This document shows, in pieces, positions 2,680 to 54,892 of a stretch of DNA of 64,000 bases; position 1 is the stretch's first letter, and the number at the start of each line of letters is the position of its first letter. A program made the translations under genes and the position numbers. Source of the DNA: Phaeacidiphilus oryzae TH49 (lineage in GTDB: Bacteria; Actinomycetota; Actinomycetes; Streptomycetales; Streptomycetaceae); contig NZ_JQMQ01000005.1 of NCBI RefSeq assembly GCF_000744815.1, positions 5,165,801-5,229,800 of the forward strand, in the 5' to 3' direction. The notes beneath the pieces were generated by a model that saw only the letters and a program-made list of their open reading frames with translations, had not been told where the DNA came from and did not search any database.

Positions 2680-5430
2680 TCAGGCGTCGCCGCCGGCCGC
2701 CCCCGGGTCCGCCGCCGCGACGTCCAGCAGCTGGTACCGGTCGATCGCGGCCTTCAGCACCGAGCGGTCCACCTTGCCCTGCTTCGCCAGCTCGGTCAGC
2801 ACGCCCACGACCACCGACTCGGCGTCGATGTGGAAGAACCGGCGGGCGGCGCCGCGGGTGTCCGCGAAGCCGAAGCCGTCCGCGCCCAGCGACTGCCAGG
2901 GGCCCGGCACCCAGCGCGAGATCTGGTCCGGGACCGCCCGCATCCAGTCCGAGACGGCCACGAACGGGCCCTCGGAGCCGGAGAGCTTGCGGGTCACGTA
3001 CGGGACGCGCTGCTCCTCCTCCGGGTGGAGGAGGTTGTGCTCCTCGCAGGCCACCGCGTCCCGGCGGAGCTCGTTCCACGAGGTGGCGGACCAGACGTCG
3101 GCCTTCACGTTCCAGTCGCGGGCCAGGATCTCCTGGGCCTCCAGGGCCCAGCCCATCCCCACGCCGGAGGCGAGGATCTGCGCCGGGATCTCGCCCTCGG
3201 TGCCCGGCCGGTACTTGTAGACGCCCTTGAGGATGCCCTCGACGTCCACGTTCTCCGGCTCGGCCGGCATCTTGATCGGCTCGTTGTAGACGGTGAGGTA
3301 GTAGAAGACGTCCTCGCCGTGGGGGTGCTCCGGCGAGGAGCCGTACATCCGCCGCATGCCGTCCTGGACGATGTGCGCGATCTCGAAGCCGAAGGCCGGG
3401 TCGTAGGCCACGGCCGCCGGGTTGGTCGAGGCCAGCAGCTGCGAGTGGCCGTCGGCGTGCTGCAGGCCCTCACCCGTGAGCGTGGTCCGGCCGGCGGTCG
3501 CGCCCAGGACGAAACCGCGCACCAACTGGTCGGCCATCTGCCAGAACTGGTCGCCGGTGCGCTGGAACCCGAACATCGAGTAGAAGACGTAGACCGGGAT
3601 CAGCGGCTCGCCGTGGGTCGCGTACGCGGAGCCCGCGGCGATCGCCGAAGCGGTGCAGCCGGCCTCGGAGATGCCGTCGTGCAGCATCTGCCCGGTGGTC
3701 GACTCCTTGTACGCCAGCAGCAGCTCGCGGTCGACCGACTCGTAGGTCTGGCCCTGCGGCGAGTAGATCTTCGCCGAGGGGAAGAGCGAGTCCATGCCGA
3801 AGGTGCGGTACTCGTCGGGCGCGATCGGCACGAAGCGCTTGCCGATGTTCTTGTCCCGCATCAGGTCCTTGAGCAGCCGGACGAACGCCATCGTGGTGGC
3901 GATCTGCTGGTTGCCCGAGCCCTTCTTCAGCGCCTTGTAGGCGTCGTCGCCGGGCAGCTCCAGCGGCTTGCTGCGGACCTTGCGGGTCGGCACGAAGCCG
4001 CCGAGCTCCCGCCGGCGGTCGTGCATGTACTGGATCTCCTCGGAGTTCCGGCCCGGGTGGAAGTACGGGGGCAGGCCGCTCTCGAGGTCCTTGTCGGCGA
4101 TCGGCAGGTGCAGACGGTCGCGGAACCGCTTGAGGTCCTCGACGGTCAGCTTCTTCATCTGGTGGGTCGCGTTGCGGCCCTCGAAGTTGGGGCCGAGCGT
4201 CCAGCCCTTGACGGTCTGGGCGAGGATCACCGTCGGCTGGCCCTTGTGCTCGCGGGCCGCCTTCATCGCGGCGTAGATCTTGCGGTGGTCGTGGCCGCCG
4301 CGACCCAGGTGCTGGATCTGCTGGTCGGTCAGGCCCTCGACCATCTTCCGCAGCCGCAGGTCGCTGCCGAAGAAGTTCTCCCGGATGTACTCGCCGGACT
4401 CGGTCGCGTACGTCTGGAACTGGCCGTCCGGGGTCTTGTTCAGCTTCTCGACCAGGACGCCGTCCCGGTCCTGCGCCAGCAGCGGGTCCCAGGTGCGGTC
4501 CCAGACCAGCTTGATGACGTTCCAGCCGGCGCCGCGGAAGACCGACTCCAGCTCCTGCATGATCTTGCCGTTGCCGCGGACCGGGCCGTCCAGACGCTGG
4601 AGGTTGCAGTTGACCACGAAGGTCAGGTTGTCCAGGTTCTCCCGGGCGGCGATGGTCAGCTGGCCGAGCGACTCGACCTCGTCCATCTCGCCGTCGCCGA
4701 GGTAGGCCCAGACGTGCGAGTCCGTGAGGTCCTTGATGCCCCGGTCGGTCATGTACCGGTTCATCCGGGCCTGGTAGATCGCGCCGAGCGGGCCGAGGCC
4801 CATGGAGACGGTCGGGAACTCCCAGAAGTCCGGCATCGAGCGCGGGTGGGGGTAACTGGAGAGGGCGTTCGGCGCCTTCGACTTCTCCTGGCGGAAGCCG
4901 TCCAGCTGCTGCTCGCTGAGCCGGTCCAGAAGGAAGGCCCGGGCGTAGATGCCGGGGGAGGCGTGGCCCTGGAAGTAGACCTGGTCGCCGGACTCACCCT
5001 CGGCGTCCTTGCCCCGGAAGAAGTAGTTGAAGCCCACGTCGTAGAGGGACGCGGAGGAGGCGAAGGTCGCGATGTGGCCGCCGACCCCGATGCCGGGGCG
5101 CTGGGCGCGGGACACCATCACGGCCGCGTTCCACCGGGTCGCGTTCAGGATCTTGCGCTCGATCTCCTCGTTGCCGGGGAAGAACGGCTCGTCCTTGGTC
5201 GCGATGGTGTTGACGTAGTCCGTGCTGCGCATCTCGGGCACGGCCACGCGCTTGGCGCGGGCATGCTCGATCAGGCGGAGCATCAGGTAGCGGGCACGCT
5301 CGCGGCCGCGCTCGTCGATGGCGGCGTCGAGCGAGTCAAGCCACTCGCCGGTCTCCTCGGGATCGAAGTCCGGGACCTGGCTGGGCAGGCCGCCAATCAT
5401 GATCGGGTTGCGATCGGATCCGGAAGCCAC
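2680..5430 (-). CDS. aceE: Pyruvate dehydrogenase E1 component, homodimeric type
   Basis: Thiamine-diphosphate enzyme that decarboxylates pyruvate and acetylates the lipoyl group of E2, linking glycolysis to the TCA cycle in the cytoplasmic PDH complex. The 916-aa length fits the single-chain AceE family (about 890-920 aa). Recognisable blocks are '[12 protein letters not shown]', '[20 protein letters not shown]', '[16 protein letters not shown]', the ThDP/Mg motif 'GDGEMDE' near residue 245 followed by '[14 protein letters not shown]', '[10 protein letters not shown]', 'DGISEAGC' and '[15 protein letters not shown]'. The start is GTG at 5430 with GAAGGA 6 bp upstream. It is monocistronic, ending in a strong hairpin. 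An inverted repeat and a palindrome lie in the promoter region (see 5452-5525). Confidence 0.97.
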
Positions 5431-39532: not shown

Positions 39533-39720
39533 CGATTCCTGAGGTCGCCGAACGGCTCGGGACCACCCCGCGGTTCCCCCGCCGGCTCATCGCGGAGCGG
39601 CGCATCACCTTCGTCCACGTCGGGCGCCACGTGCGCATACCCGAGCCGGCCTTGGACGAGTTCATCGCGAGCAACACCACCCACCCGATCAGGCGGCGAC
39701 ACGGAAGGCAGGTGGCCTGA
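39514..39720 (+). CDS. xis: Excisionase (Xis), MerR-type helix-turn-helix
   Basis: 68-aa directionality factor. 'LLTIPEVAERLGTTPRFPRR', 'IAERRITFVHVGRHVRIPEP', 'ALDEFIASN' is a standard winged HTH of the excisionase/HTH_17 group. GTG 39514 has GGGAGGGAG upstream. It overlaps RepSA at its 5' end and Int at its 3' end (TGATG). Confidence 0.9.
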   Translation: MAERLLTIPEVAERLGTTPRFPRRLIAERRITFVHVGRHVRIPEPALDEFIASNTTHPIRRRHGRQVA

Positions 39721-40907
39721 TGCCCAACTCCAAGGGACGCAAGCGGCGGTTCGGCGCAGTCCGGCAACTCCCCTCCGGCCGCTGGCAGATCCGCTACCCC
39801 GACCCGCAGACCAAGCAACTGCGCAACGGGGAGCGCACCTACCCGAGCAAGACCGATGCCGAGGCCGCGTTGTCGGTCATCGAGGCGGACATCCTGCGCG
39901 GGCAGTGGACAGACCCGGAGGCCGGGAAGGTCACGTTGGCGGAGTTCGCTGGGCCGTGGCTCAAGGAACGGAACCTGGCTGCCAGTAGCCGGGACCGCAA
40001 CGAGGTGGCCATTCGGCTGCATCTGGTGCCGAAGCTGGGGGACCTGGCGCTCAATCAGATCAGTACGCCTCGGGTTCGACGTTGGCGGGCCGAGCTGCTG
40101 GACTCCGGGGTCGGTGAGCCGACGGTCGTGCGGGCGTACCAGGTGCTGCGCGCGATCATGAACACCGCTGTCGACGACGGGTTGATTCAGCGCAACCCCT
40201 GTCGGATCAAGGGCGCGGGGGTGACCAAGACGCCGGAGCGGCCGACGCTCACCGTCGCTGAGGTCTTCAAGGTGGCGGATGCCATCGAAGCGCGGTACCG
40301 CACGCTGGTGCTCCTGGCGGCGTTCGCCAGTCTGAGGTTCGGGGAGCTGGCGGCGCTGGAGCGGCGGGATATCGACCTGGGGCGGCGGGTCGTCCGGGTG
40401 CAGCGGGCGCAGGTGGAGACGAAGTCGGCGGGGCTGGTGGTGAAGGCTCCCAAGACGGAGGCCGGCGTCCGGTCGGTGGCCTTTCCGGCGTCGATCGTTC
40501 CGGCGCTGGAACAGCACCTCGGCACCTTCTCCCAGAAGGGGCGTACCGGGCTGGTCTTCGTGGGGCCGCGGGGAGGGAGCCTGCGGCGGAGCAACTTCCG
40601 GGACACCTGGTTGGCGGCGCTCAAGACGGCCGGGCTGGAGAGCGTCCACTTTCATGACCTCCGGCACACCGGGAACACCCTCGCTGCGAACAGCGGGGCG
40701 AGTACGCGGGAGCTGATGCAGCGGATGGGGCACGCGTCAGTGCGGGCCGCGCTGATCTATCAGCACATGACCGGGGGACGGGACCAGATCATCGCGGAGC
40801 AGGTGGACGGGATGATCAAGGACGCGCAGAAGGAGGAGCGGAAGAGGAAGCGGAAGGCCGGGAAGGCGGGTAGGAAGCGGAAGATCGACGGGGGATCTGG
40901 CACGTAA
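39720..40907 (+). CDS. int: Tyrosine site-specific integrase of element 1
   Basis: Integrase of 395 aa. N-terminal SAM-like core-binding domain ('TLAEFAGPWLKERNL...RDRNEVAIRLHLVP') and catalytic domain with Arg in 'FASLRFGELAAL', 'FHDLRHTGNTLAA' (HxxR), 'RMGHASVRAALIYQH' (H, then nucleophile Tyr). The last 30 residues are very Lys/Arg-rich. ATG 39720 overlaps the Xis stop. It recombines attP with the tRNA-Val attB; attR begins 114 bp beyond its stop. Confidence 0.95.
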   Translation: MPNSKGRKRRFGAVRQLPSGRWQIRYPDPQTKQLRNGERTYPSKTDAEAALSVIEADILRGQWTDPEAGKVTLAEFAGPWLKERNLAASSRDRNEVAIRLHLVPKLGDLALNQISTPRVRRWRAELLDSGVGEPTVVRAYQVLRAIMNTAVDDGLIQRNPCRIKGAGVTKTPERPTLTVAEVFKVADAIEARYRTLVLLAAFASLRFGELAALERRDIDLGRRVVRVQRAQVETKSAGLVVKAPKTEAGVRSVAFPASIVPALEQHLGTFSQKGRTGLVFVGPRGGSLRRSNFRDTWLAALKTAGLESVHFHDLRHTGNTLAANSGASTRELMQRMGHASVRAALIYQHMTGGRDQIIAEQVDGMIKDAQKEERKRKRKAGKAGRKRKIDGGSGT

Positions 40908-52643: not shown

Positions 52644-52727
52644 CGCACCGCCATCTGTCCGGCCGGGGCCCGTCCTACTCCGCGGGCCCCGGCCGGCACC
52701 ACCCGCACGAGCAAAGGACCGCAGCAC

Positions 52728-53561
52728 GTGGGAATCCGCCTGATCGTCGAGGTGCTGGATCACGCGCCGCAGACGCTGACGCACCGCGAGAAGCTCACCC
52801 TCACGGTGCTGGCGGAGGACGCCAACGACGAGACCCGACGCACCTGGAGCAGCGTCGAGGCGCCGATGATCCTCCGGCGCTGCAAGGTGACCCGTTCGGG
52901 GATGTACGAGGTGCTCAAGGGCCTGGTCGCGAAGGGCGCTTTGGAGAAGACGACGGCGGGCCAGAAGAACGTCCGGGCGGCCGAGTACCGGCTGCTTCCG
53001 CTGGCCCCTCAGTGTCCTGGTTCTCCGGACACTGAGGGCCCTCAGTGTCCCGGAATTCCGGACCCTGAACCCGTACTTCAGGGTCCGGAGAACCCGGACA
53101 CTGAGCCGTCTCAGTGTCCGGAAAACCCGGACGCTGAACCCCAACTTCAGGGTCCGGGGAATCCGGACACTGACGGCTCTCAGTGTCTGGAGAACCCGGA
53201 CACCTACCCCTCAATACAAAAGAGAGATAGCTCTCCACACCCGCCAGCCCCGTCAGCGCACTCCAGCACCGACGGCTTCGCCGAGTTCTGGGAGACCTAT
53301 CCCCGGAAGATCGGCAAGGGGCACGCCCGTAAAGCGTGGGCCGCGGCCATCAAGGGCGGCGCCGACCCCGCCGAGATCCTCGCCGCCGCCGCCCGGCACG
53401 CAGACGCCTGGAAAGCCGCCCACACCGACCAGCGGTTCATCCCCCACCCCACCACCTGGCTGCACGGCGAGCGCTACGACGACGCAGACCTGCCCACCGC
53501 CCCCGCCGCCAACCCGCAGCAGCCCCCGCTGCCCAGCTACGCCGACCAAGGGATCTTCTGA
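52728..53561 (+). CDS. Winged-helix replication initiator-like protein with repeat array
   Basis: 277 aa in three parts. Residues 1-90: helix-turn-helix ('LTHREKLTLTVLAEDANDET', 'MILRRCKVTRSGMYEVLKGL'). Residues about 93-160: six tandem copies of an 11-12-residue Pro-rich unit (QCPGxPDTEP), encoded by DNA full of hairpins. Residues about 180-250: 'FAEFWETYPRKIGKGHARKA', 'HTDQRFIPHPTTWLHGERYD', the conserved helical tail of phage replisome organisers. It stands directly before the DnaB-like helicase (TGATG overlap), the lambda O-P type order. The protein probably binds the origin and loads the helicase. GTG start 52728. Confidence 0.78.
   Translation: MGIRLIVEVLDHAPQTLTHREKLTLTVLAEDANDETRRTWSSVEAPMILRRCKVTRSGMYEVLKGLVAKGALEKTTAGQKNVRAAEYRLLPLAPQCPGSPDTEGPQCPGIPDPEPVLQGPENPDTEPSQCPENPDAEPQLQGPGNPDTDGSQCLENPDTYPSIQKRDSSPHPPAPSAHSSTDGFAEFWETYPRKIGKGHARKAWAAAIKGGADPAEILAAAARHADAWKAAHTDQRFIPHPTTWLHGERYDDADLPTAPAANPQQPPLPSYADQGIF
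53006..53190 (+). repeat. Array of hairpin repeats inside the initiator gene (candidate origin)
   Basis: CTCAGTGTCC and its complement GGACACTGAG, with variants TTCAGGGTCC/GGACCCTGAA, alternate about every 17-20 bp. Adjacent arms make about five successive stem-loops, several with 12-bp stems, for example CCCTCAGTGTCC (53006-53017) with GGACACTGAGGG (53027-53038). In-frame unit length is 33-36 bp. Iterons within an initiator gene are how lambda-type origins are built. Confidence 0.75.
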
Positions 53562-54892
53562 TGACCGCCCCCGCCGCCTTCCCGCCCGACGACAGCCTGG
53601 ACGCAGGGCCGTCCCTGCCCCACGACATCGACGCCGAACAGGCCTTCGTCGGAGCCCTGATCACCGACCCCCGCCGGCTGCGCACCAACCTCGCCGCCGT
53701 GGCTCCCGCCGACTACTACCGGCCCGCCCACGCGATCATCCACACCACCATCCAGCAGCTGCACGACGACGCCCAGGCCGTCGACCCGATCACCCTCACC
53801 GCCGCCCTGCAGGCCGCCGGCCACCTTGGCCGCGTCGGCGGCCGCGACTACCTGCACACCTGCATCACCCAGCTGCCCGCCCCGGCGAACGCCGACTGGT
53901 ACGCCGAGCGGATCCGCGACCTCGCGCTGCGCCGCGCCCTGATCACCACCGGCTCGGACATCGCCGCGATGGGCTACGACCCCGCCTCCGGCGACCCGGC
54001 CGAGCTCGCCGAGCGCGCCGTCGCCTTGGCCCGCGACGTCCGCGACGCCGGCCGCGCCGCCGAGGACAGTCCTGTGCTGGACGTGCATGACTTCCTCGCC
54101 ATCGACGACACCGCCCACGACTGGGTGCTGCCGGGCCTGCTGGAGCACGGCGACCGGATCGTGTGGACCGCGGGCGAAGGCGGCGGCAAGTCCGTGCTGC
54201 AGCGGCAGCTCGCCGTCTCCGCCGCGGCCGGCGCCCAGCCCTTCGAGTTCGAGCCCAACGCCCTCGGACCGCAGAAGGTCTTGGTCTTGGACTGCGAGAA
54301 CAGCGAGCGGCAGTCCCGCCGGCACTTCCGGGACGTGATGAACGCCGCCGAGCGGCGCCGCACCCCCGTCAAGCGCGGCCAGCTGCACGTCGACGTCCGC
54401 CCCGAAGGCGTGGACCTCACGCGCCCGGACGGCCGCGCGTGGCTGATGCGCCGGGTCGAGGCTGTCATGCCCGACCTGCTGATCATCGGCCCGATCTACC
54501 GCCTGCACACCGGCGACCCCAACAGCGAGGAACACGCCCGGCGGATCACGGTGGTCCTGGATGAGGCCCGGGCCACCGCGAACTGCGCGATCAGCCTGGA
54601 GGCGCACTCCCCGCAGGGATCCGGCTTCGGCCCGCGCACCCTGCGCCCCGCCGGATCGAGCCTCTGGCTGCGCTGGCCCGAGTTCGGGCTGGGCCTGCGC
54701 CCGGTCGAGGACGAGCGCTCGGCCCGCGAGCACCGGGCCCGGCGGATCCTGCCCTGGCGCGGCGCGCGGGACGAGCGCACCTGGCCCTCCTTCATCTGCC
54801 AGGGCTACGAGGGCAGTTGGCCCTGGCGCTCCTACAAGCCCGTCGACGCCGACCCGTACTCCGGCTACTCGCCCACCGGCGCCGTCGCATGA
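53561..54892 (+). CDS. DnaB-type replicative helicase / RepA-like ATPase
   Basis: 443 aa. N-terminal DnaB domain (about residues 18-165, 'DIDAEQAFVGALITDPRRLR', 'DYYRPAHAIIHTTIQQLHDD', 'GRVGGRDYLHTCITQLPAPA'), then a RecA-like domain of the RepA/AAA_25 kind: Walker A 'GEGGGKSVLQRQL' near residue 206, Walker B 'PDLLIIGPIYRLH', 'CAISLEAHSPQG'. The C-terminal half is less like true DnaB, so it may be a DnaB-RepA hybrid. ATG 53561 overlaps the stop of the initiator gene. Confidence 0.87.
   Translation: MTAPAAFPPDDSLDAGPSLPHDIDAEQAFVGALITDPRRLRTNLAAVAPADYYRPAHAIIHTTIQQLHDDAQAVDPITLTAALQAAGHLGRVGGRDYLHTCITQLPAPANADWYAERIRDLALRRALITTGSDIAAMGYDPASGDPAELAERAVALARDVRDAGRAAEDSPVLDVHDFLAIDDTAHDWVLPGLLEHGDRIVWTAGEGGGKSVLQRQLAVSAAAGAQPFEFEPNALGPQKVLVLDCENSERQSRRHFRDVMNAAERRRTPVKRGQLHVDVRPEGVDLTRPDGRAWLMRRVEAVMPDLLIIGPIYRLHTGDPNSEEHARRITVVLDEARATANCAISLEAHSPQGSGFGPRTLRPAGSSLWLRWPEFGLGLRPVEDERSAREHRARRILPWRGARDERTWPSFICQGYEGSWPWRSYKPVDADPYSGYSPTGAVA

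Follow-up and report, generated by a model that had tools for sequence, protein, structure and literature searches.

A candidate replication origin of dyad-symmetric units inside the initiator gene of an actinobacterial prophage

Replication origins that lie within the gene of their own initiator are known already from phage lambda and some plasmids. In the Streptomyces linear plasmid pSLA2, iterons reportedly lie inside rep1, which is followed by the helicase-like rep2. The initiator-binding repeats of iteron plasmids also serve control. In the O genes of lambda and the Stx lambdoid phages, inverted-repeat sites for the initiator dimer are described for the central part of the gene, with an AT-rich stretch behind them, and the number of sites differs between relatives (PMC7466680; PMC5043065). 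The AT-rich element of lambda is also described as strand-asymmetric (PMC5043065). As for the RepA_N plasmids, the account of pSK41 gives the initiator a winged-helix N-terminus, binding sites in the centre of the rep gene, a linker encoded by the origin and an exchangeable C-terminal domain, and presents this linker as dispensable as protein (PMC5703833). According to the same account, the pPR9 hybrid differs from pSK41 only in its N-terminal and origin part. In this type of initiator, a phage-like HTH_36 N-terminus and its origin have replaced those of pSK41, and the C-terminus was kept (PMC5703833). The RepA protein of the Streptomyces plasmid pWTY27 is described as protecting alternating half-sites, GTGGGAAC/TTCCCAC (PMC3583192). 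For the repA gene of a mycobacteriophage, it is reported that no repeats were found nearby, and the authors suggest an origin upstream of or within the gene (PMC7157519). What appears to be new in the locus described here is a class of actinobacterial prophages with lineage-specific dyads that seem to be kept through frame changes. No description of the array or of the gene class was recognised in searches of the open-access literature.

The window, i.e., the whole 64-kb stretch of DNA that was analysed, contains a prophage integrated in the genome of a Streptomyces-like bacterium. An IMG/VR prophage contig with the same initiator gene starts, by coordinate arithmetic, on the first base of the integrase open reading frame (Table 1). 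The initiator gene sits within a replication module of helicases, SSB and ATPase. Pfam and phrog profiles matched an AAA_24 ATPase, a UvrD-like helicase, a DUF2303 protein, a DnaB-type helicase and an SSB around it. The interval that separates the DUF2303 gene from the initiator gene holds an inverted repeat (52659-52696) with perfect arms of 14 nt and a loop of 10 nt, possibly a terminator or leader element. The helicase gene follows directly downstream, its ATG sharing one base (53561) with the TGA of the initiator gene.

The preliminary description had taken the gene for a replication initiator. The profile of a phage replication initiation protein, phrog_270, agrees with this and spans residues 16-266, most of the protein. 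No curated Pfam or NCBIfam family matched the protein above its cut-off, and its HTH_36 (PF13730) score of 14.9 bits lies below the gathering cut-off of 25. The fold of the modelled N-terminal domain matches Rep and initiator domains moderately: four of the first five Foldseek chains are N-terminal domains of such proteins, one of them in complex with DNA. Against the PDB, 5kbj reached a Foldseek E-value of 2.1e-3 and 4pql a Z-score of 9.5, with unrelated winged helices close behind at Z 8 to 8.7. The best PDB matches (5kbj, 4pt7 and 4pql) we take to be N-terminal domains of the staphylococcal RepA or RepA_N family. The model of the C-terminal domain had no PDB match at E <= 0.001.

Within the initiator gene, six dyad-symmetric 27-bp units of the form TCAGNGTCC-N9-GGACNCTGA occupy 53009-53206, and their centres are spaced 33, 36, 33, 36 and 33 bp apart. 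Units 1 to 5 are good, whereas unit 6 is degenerate (TCAGTGTCT...GGACACCTA). The repeats had been placed at 53006-53190, between the HTH and the C-terminal domain and just before a DnaB-like helicase. The position is correct to within a few bases, except that the array extends to about 53206. The winged helix and the C-terminal domain do flank it, and the next gene combines a DnaB N-terminal domain with AAA_25. The count of about five stem-loops fits the five good units and the degenerate sixth, and the Pro-rich peptide repeats said to be coded by the array are present and in frame. In the 7.8-Mb genome, the exact pattern AGNGTCC-N9-GGACNCT occurs five times, always within the array; with one mismatch, 20 matches were obtained, all elsewhere, and a reversed control pattern gave 22. 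The window has 19 half-sites with at most one mismatch; outside the array there are 8 of them, where a shuffled window would be expected to give 12.7, and no further dyad unit was found elsewhere in the 64 kb. Owing to the dyad symmetry, an open reading frame of 107 aa on the minus strand (52915-53238) codes for almost identical peptide repeats. It came up as a second match to the initiator and is probably an artefact.

Table 1. Position of the initiator gene, its array and associated features in the window
Feature	Coordinates	Strand	Evidence or remark
Integrase gene	39720..40907	+	phrog_1, E 1.1e-65; first base coincides with the IMG/VR prophage contig start
Replication initiator gene (GTG start, 277 aa), contains the array	52728..53561	+	phrog_270, E 3.2e-36
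N-terminal winged-helix domain, presumed DNA-binding part	52728..53008	+	AlphaFold2 model, mean pLDDT 90
Dyad unit 1	53009..53035		repeat search; among exact genome-wide matches
Dyad unit 2	53042..53068		repeat search; among exact genome-wide matches
Dyad unit 3	53078..53104		repeat search; among exact genome-wide matches
Dyad unit 4	53111..53137		repeat search; among exact genome-wide matches
Dyad unit 5	53147..53173		repeat search; among exact genome-wide matches
Dyad unit 6, degenerate	53180..53206		absent from exact genome-wide matches
AT-raised stretch after the array, candidate unwinding element	53204..53249		AT 0.47 against 0.32 for the gene; ACCCCTC at 53206
C-terminal domain, presumed helicase contact	53256..53558	+	shared with other phage initiators; four-helix model, mean pLDDT 78.5
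DnaB-type replicative helicase gene	53561..54892	+	DnaB N-terminal domain, E 7.9e-23; AAA_25, E 2e-23; phrog_19

Homologues were gathered from viral contigs, species genomes and whole genomes, and one is present in 36 of the 394 genomes of the family. The sample comprises 85 records, the window included, of which 81 matched the N-terminal profile and reduce to 61 distinct proteins and genes. Two proteins (L054 and L082) were left out of the structure alignment, which holds 59. HTH_36 is reached at E <= 0.1 in 36 of 59 family members, with a best E-value of 6.1e-10. A de novo half-site search, read by eye, gave alternating arrays in most of the 61 genes; those of a few, e.g., L026, L054, L067 and L077, are not cleanly alternating. 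In a comparison of four N-terminal domains with a collection of isolated phages, one match appeared at E 0.6 and none at E <= 0.001. A plasmid search with the N-terminus of the window protein returned one record, the Pseudonocardia alni plasmid pPaSha2, whose initiator relative has an excess of inverted repeats (0 of 200 shuffles as high); the same search with the N-terminus of L072, a distant relative, gave no match. The plasmid pPaSha2 carries phage-like genes (Bet); its initiator relative lies from position 4001 on, and the listed rows of its gene table show no CDS over most of this relative.

The array is very probably the core of the replication origin of the prophage, inside the gene of its own initiator and bound by that initiator. 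At the level of sequence, the part of this reading that places an origin inside the initiator gene is well supported. In the proposed mechanism, a dimer of the N-terminal winged helix would bind each 27-bp dyad, and the loading of about six dimers would strain and open the adjacent AT-raised stretch. The C-terminal domain would then bring in the DnaB-type helicase encoded directly downstream. In this scheme the origin would operate much as the lambda origin and the RepA_N plasmids do, and steps of the kind have precedents in lambda O (PMC7466680; PMC5043065) and in the Rep protein of pSK41 (PMC5703833). The coding frame would merely pass through the origin as a flexible linker, and hence the gene would tolerate changes of repeat number and frame inside the array. 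Since protein and site travel in one gene, the half-site could change along with the DNA-binding domain, and such a joint change would give each lineage an origin specificity of its own.

Constraint on the DNA itself was assessed with synonymous shuffles, in which the protein was kept, codons were shuffled within the gene 200 times, and pairs of 8-mer inverted repeats were counted. The window gene holds 70 such pairs against 10.1 ± 5.1 in the shuffles, none of which has as many, and six other genes of the prophage showed no excess. In 48 of the 61 homologous genes, the inverted-repeat content likewise lies above all 200 shuffles. The other 13, among which L054, L067, L078, L080 and L083 fail clearly, count against the origin reading. 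It had been proposed that relatives keeping the gene without repeat DNA would speak against an origin. The check did not refute it, as most relatives retain an array. A further point on the opposing side is the gene order of the homologues, since only 13 of the 61 have a helicase-like open reading frame within 2.6 kb downstream, although some loci end sooner.

The stretch behind the array is consistent with strand opening at this place. Not one of 200 synonymous shuffles made it as AT-rich in the window gene, and the gene's 36-nt window of lowest GC starts 6 nt before the array ends. Among the homologues, the AT content of the 45 nt after the array exceeds the gene mean in 59 of the 61 genes (on average 0.44 against 0.33), and in 50 of the 61 no more than 10 of 200 synonymous shuffles match this richness. 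In 53 of the 61 genes, the 36-nt stretch with the most pyrimidines is found at the array end; the window gene is not one of them, which counts against the origin reading. The hexamers CCCCTC, CTCCTC and CCCCTA, a set chosen after inspection of the sequences, reach 23.4 per kb behind the arrays and 1.4 per kb in all other parts of the genes. The exact heptamer ACCCCTC, of which the window gene holds a single copy, occurs 25 times in 16 of the 61 genes and in all three frames, against 7.1 ± 2.1 copies in 100 synonymous shuffles. Motifs of this kind cluster no more than 70 nt past arrays of unrelated half-sites in the 61 homologous genes. Being common where the dyads differ, they may be read by a host factor or take part in strand opening.

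The likeness to lambda-type O origins with a distinct sequence, which the preliminary description had pointed out, is close: here, too, inverted-repeat sites lie inside the initiator gene. The differences concern the sites, which in lambda are 19 bp long and of another sequence against units of 27 bp here, and the next gene, which in lambda encodes a P-type loader and here a DnaB-type helicase. The O-like profiles phrog_391 (E 2.6e-5) and phrog_8540 (E 1.9e-4) matched weakly, and no Pfam O family matched the window protein at E <= 0.1. With pSK41 the locus has in common a winged-helix N-terminus, here by model, a central position of the presumed binding sites, a linker that these sites encode and C-terminal parts open to exchange. 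Compared with pSK41, which has four Rep boxes with an A+T-rich tract in them, the present dyads are GC-rich and belong to an actinobacterial phage module. RepA_N was absent at E <= 0.1 from the Pfam matches of the window protein and of its relatives, for which the best 25 of 38 families are listed. Lacking a P-type loader and a RepA_N match, and with only weak O homology, the gene was filed under neither lambda O nor RepA_N. The modularity of the pPR9-type initiators is the same as that of the exchanged C-terminal parts described below, in a staphylococcal plasmid and likened by description. In pWTY27, also likened by description, the iteron lies beside repA in non-coding DNA, and RepA has 522 aa.

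Alternatively, the array could serve regulation or copy control as a cluster to which the initiator or another prophage protein binds, with replication starting elsewhere. The double use of initiator-binding repeats in iteron plasmids speaks for such a role. Nevertheless, it is improbable here, as the window holds no further unit and the genome no exact unit elsewhere, and as the array is set some 280 bp into the gene, with an AT-raised stretch at its end as in the lambda origin.

Less probable still is that the units act as hairpins, either in mRNA for the control of translation or termination or as cruciforms extruded from DNA. The predicted folds are very stable: with short flanks, 53009-53206 folds at z -12.9 as DNA, with none of 200 dinucleotide shuffles as good, and at z -13.4 as RNA. 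However, any set of dyads would fold in this way. The long inverted repeat of pWTY27 is, in the words of its authors, thought to fold when bound (PMC3583192). Base pairing between the two halves of a unit was compared with shuffles within genes. At the most variable core position of the window's group, 46 of 152 units pair against 54.9 ± 4.9 in the shuffles, and at another core position 98 units pair against 106.7 ± 3.4. Slightly more pairing than in the shuffles was seen for one core column in one group (37 of 1000) and for one flanking column in the GGGTTCC group (10 of 1000). With shuffling across genes, column 7 was strongly correlated in two groups (0 of 2000) and three further columns were weaker (29 to 34 of 2000). 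The within-gene control abolished the column 7 correlation in the window's group; for the column in the GGGTTCC group, it is uninformative because the column is invariant within those genes. This want of covariation inside genes favours duplex half-sites over hairpin stems, which on balance seems the better reading of the sequences. Moreover, the units of any one gene have a single half-site sequence in common, a uniformity that stems by themselves do not require. Among Rfam families, 14 weak matches at E <= 0.1 were obtained, none reaching its gathering score, and no excess of terminators or promoters was found (one terminator-like site against 0.6 expected). The hairpin named as the active form in the preliminary description is therefore not supported, and a hairpin or RNA element was judged unlikely.

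The codons of the array indicate that it is conserved as DNA and not as peptide. When the protein was recoded 3000 times with codons drawn as six neighbouring genes use them, mismatches being counted over both cores together, units with at most one mismatch averaged 0.11 against 5 observed, and those with at most two averaged 0.93 against 6; no run reached either observed number. Under a lax definition (at most three mismatches), the contrast is weak, the count being reached in 80 of 3000 recodings and 135 of 5000 within-gene shuffles because the peptide alone yields poor dyads. The array uses the very codons that the neighbouring genes avoid: the Thr codon ACT accounts for none of their 129 Thr codons and for three of four in the array. 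The same is seen in the 23 genes with the window's half-site. Inside their arrays, TGT to TGC stands at 60:0 (3:25 outside), ACT to ACC at 98:1 (41:208 outside) and GCT to GCC at 14:0 (88:416 outside). The Thr codon of the mirrored half can begin with any base (A 101, C 11, G 11, T 1), whereas its third position is T in 121 of 124. These sites were picked at one mismatch at most, which raises conservation overall but not the contrast between first and third positions. Furthermore, in the three largest half-site groups, 22 of 23, 8 of 8 and 13 of 13 genes have dyad units in more than one reading frame. The sole exception among these 44 is the window gene, with all units in one frame, so that the frame argument rests on its relatives. 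In L012, for instance, one unit is read as QCPETPD and the next as VSVRESRTP. That relatives read the same DNA in other frames, and hence as other peptides, speaks against the role proposed for the Pro-rich repeats as such. A selection of the repeats as protein, i.e., a Pro-rich linker grown by tandem duplication with DNA symmetry as a by-product, could explain the similar in-frame peptide repeats and the poor dyads under lax criteria, but it is hardly credible and was regarded as ruled out by the frame changes in 43 of 44 genes, the fixed third positions and rare codons and the excess over synonymous shuffles, with the caveat that lax unit counts contrast weakly.

As for the diversity of the presumed origins, the half-sites vary by lineage and include AGTGTCC, GGGTCCGG, GGGTTCC, GGTCACC and GGCGGGA, among others. 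Five groups (G1-G5), assigned by hand after the de novo search, cover 52 of the 61 genes. Measured on plus-minus neighbours, dyad length is nearly constant per group (23 bp in 99 of 107, 21 in 38 of 40, 20 in 40 of 47 and 20 in 17 of 18), and the gaps between dyads vary within groups, a pattern that a dimer site would give. Group membership tracks the N-terminal domain, whose recognition helix and wing differ between groups, e.g., SRxQxY with an AGQKNG wing against RSSRY with a GrRG wing. The C-terminal parts fall into 12 clusters by single linkage, which may merge types; one cluster holds members of two half-site groups along with other genes, and three clusters contain genes of the AGTGTCC type. 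The half-site thus follows the winged helix and not the C-terminal part, and C-terminal parts have been exchanged. The agreement between half-site and winged helix may reflect descent alone and is no proof of recognition. Of the 13 records with the C-terminal type of the window, three from phages (L086, L087 and L089) join it to an unrelated N-terminus and lack a clear array; their inverted-repeat content was equalled in 36, 5 and 38 of 200 shuffles, respectively, which makes L087 borderline. L088, with a short open reading frame there, was left out.

It seems moderately likely that these genes form a class of actinobacterial prophage initiators with a self-contained origin module, which would combine the winged helix, a linker carrying the dyads and an unwinding element marked by ACCCCTC-like motifs. 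In such a module, the dyads, of at least five half-site types, would change with the winged helix and be kept as DNA through frame changes, and the C-terminal parts would be exchanged. If so, each gene would by nature join a DNA-binding domain to its matching site, and such pairs could reveal how initiator-origin specificity evolves. One domain family would provide dozens of such protein-site pairs, each in one gene and with the site kept as DNA despite frame changes. A joint change of specificity in initiator and origin would become directly testable, as would the possibility that phages swap helicase recruitment and retain the origin. The modules are also compact candidate replicons for Streptomyces-like hosts.

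Some genes of Streptomycetaceae genomes (L071, L072 and L074-L084) form a distant branch with a SIQLM or SIHLM N-terminus, GGGTTCC dyads and a C-terminal part rich in Cys and His. In one genome, G213, the N-terminal profile matched four times; three of these matches share their E-value and sit on three contigs, which would fit several copies of a single element.
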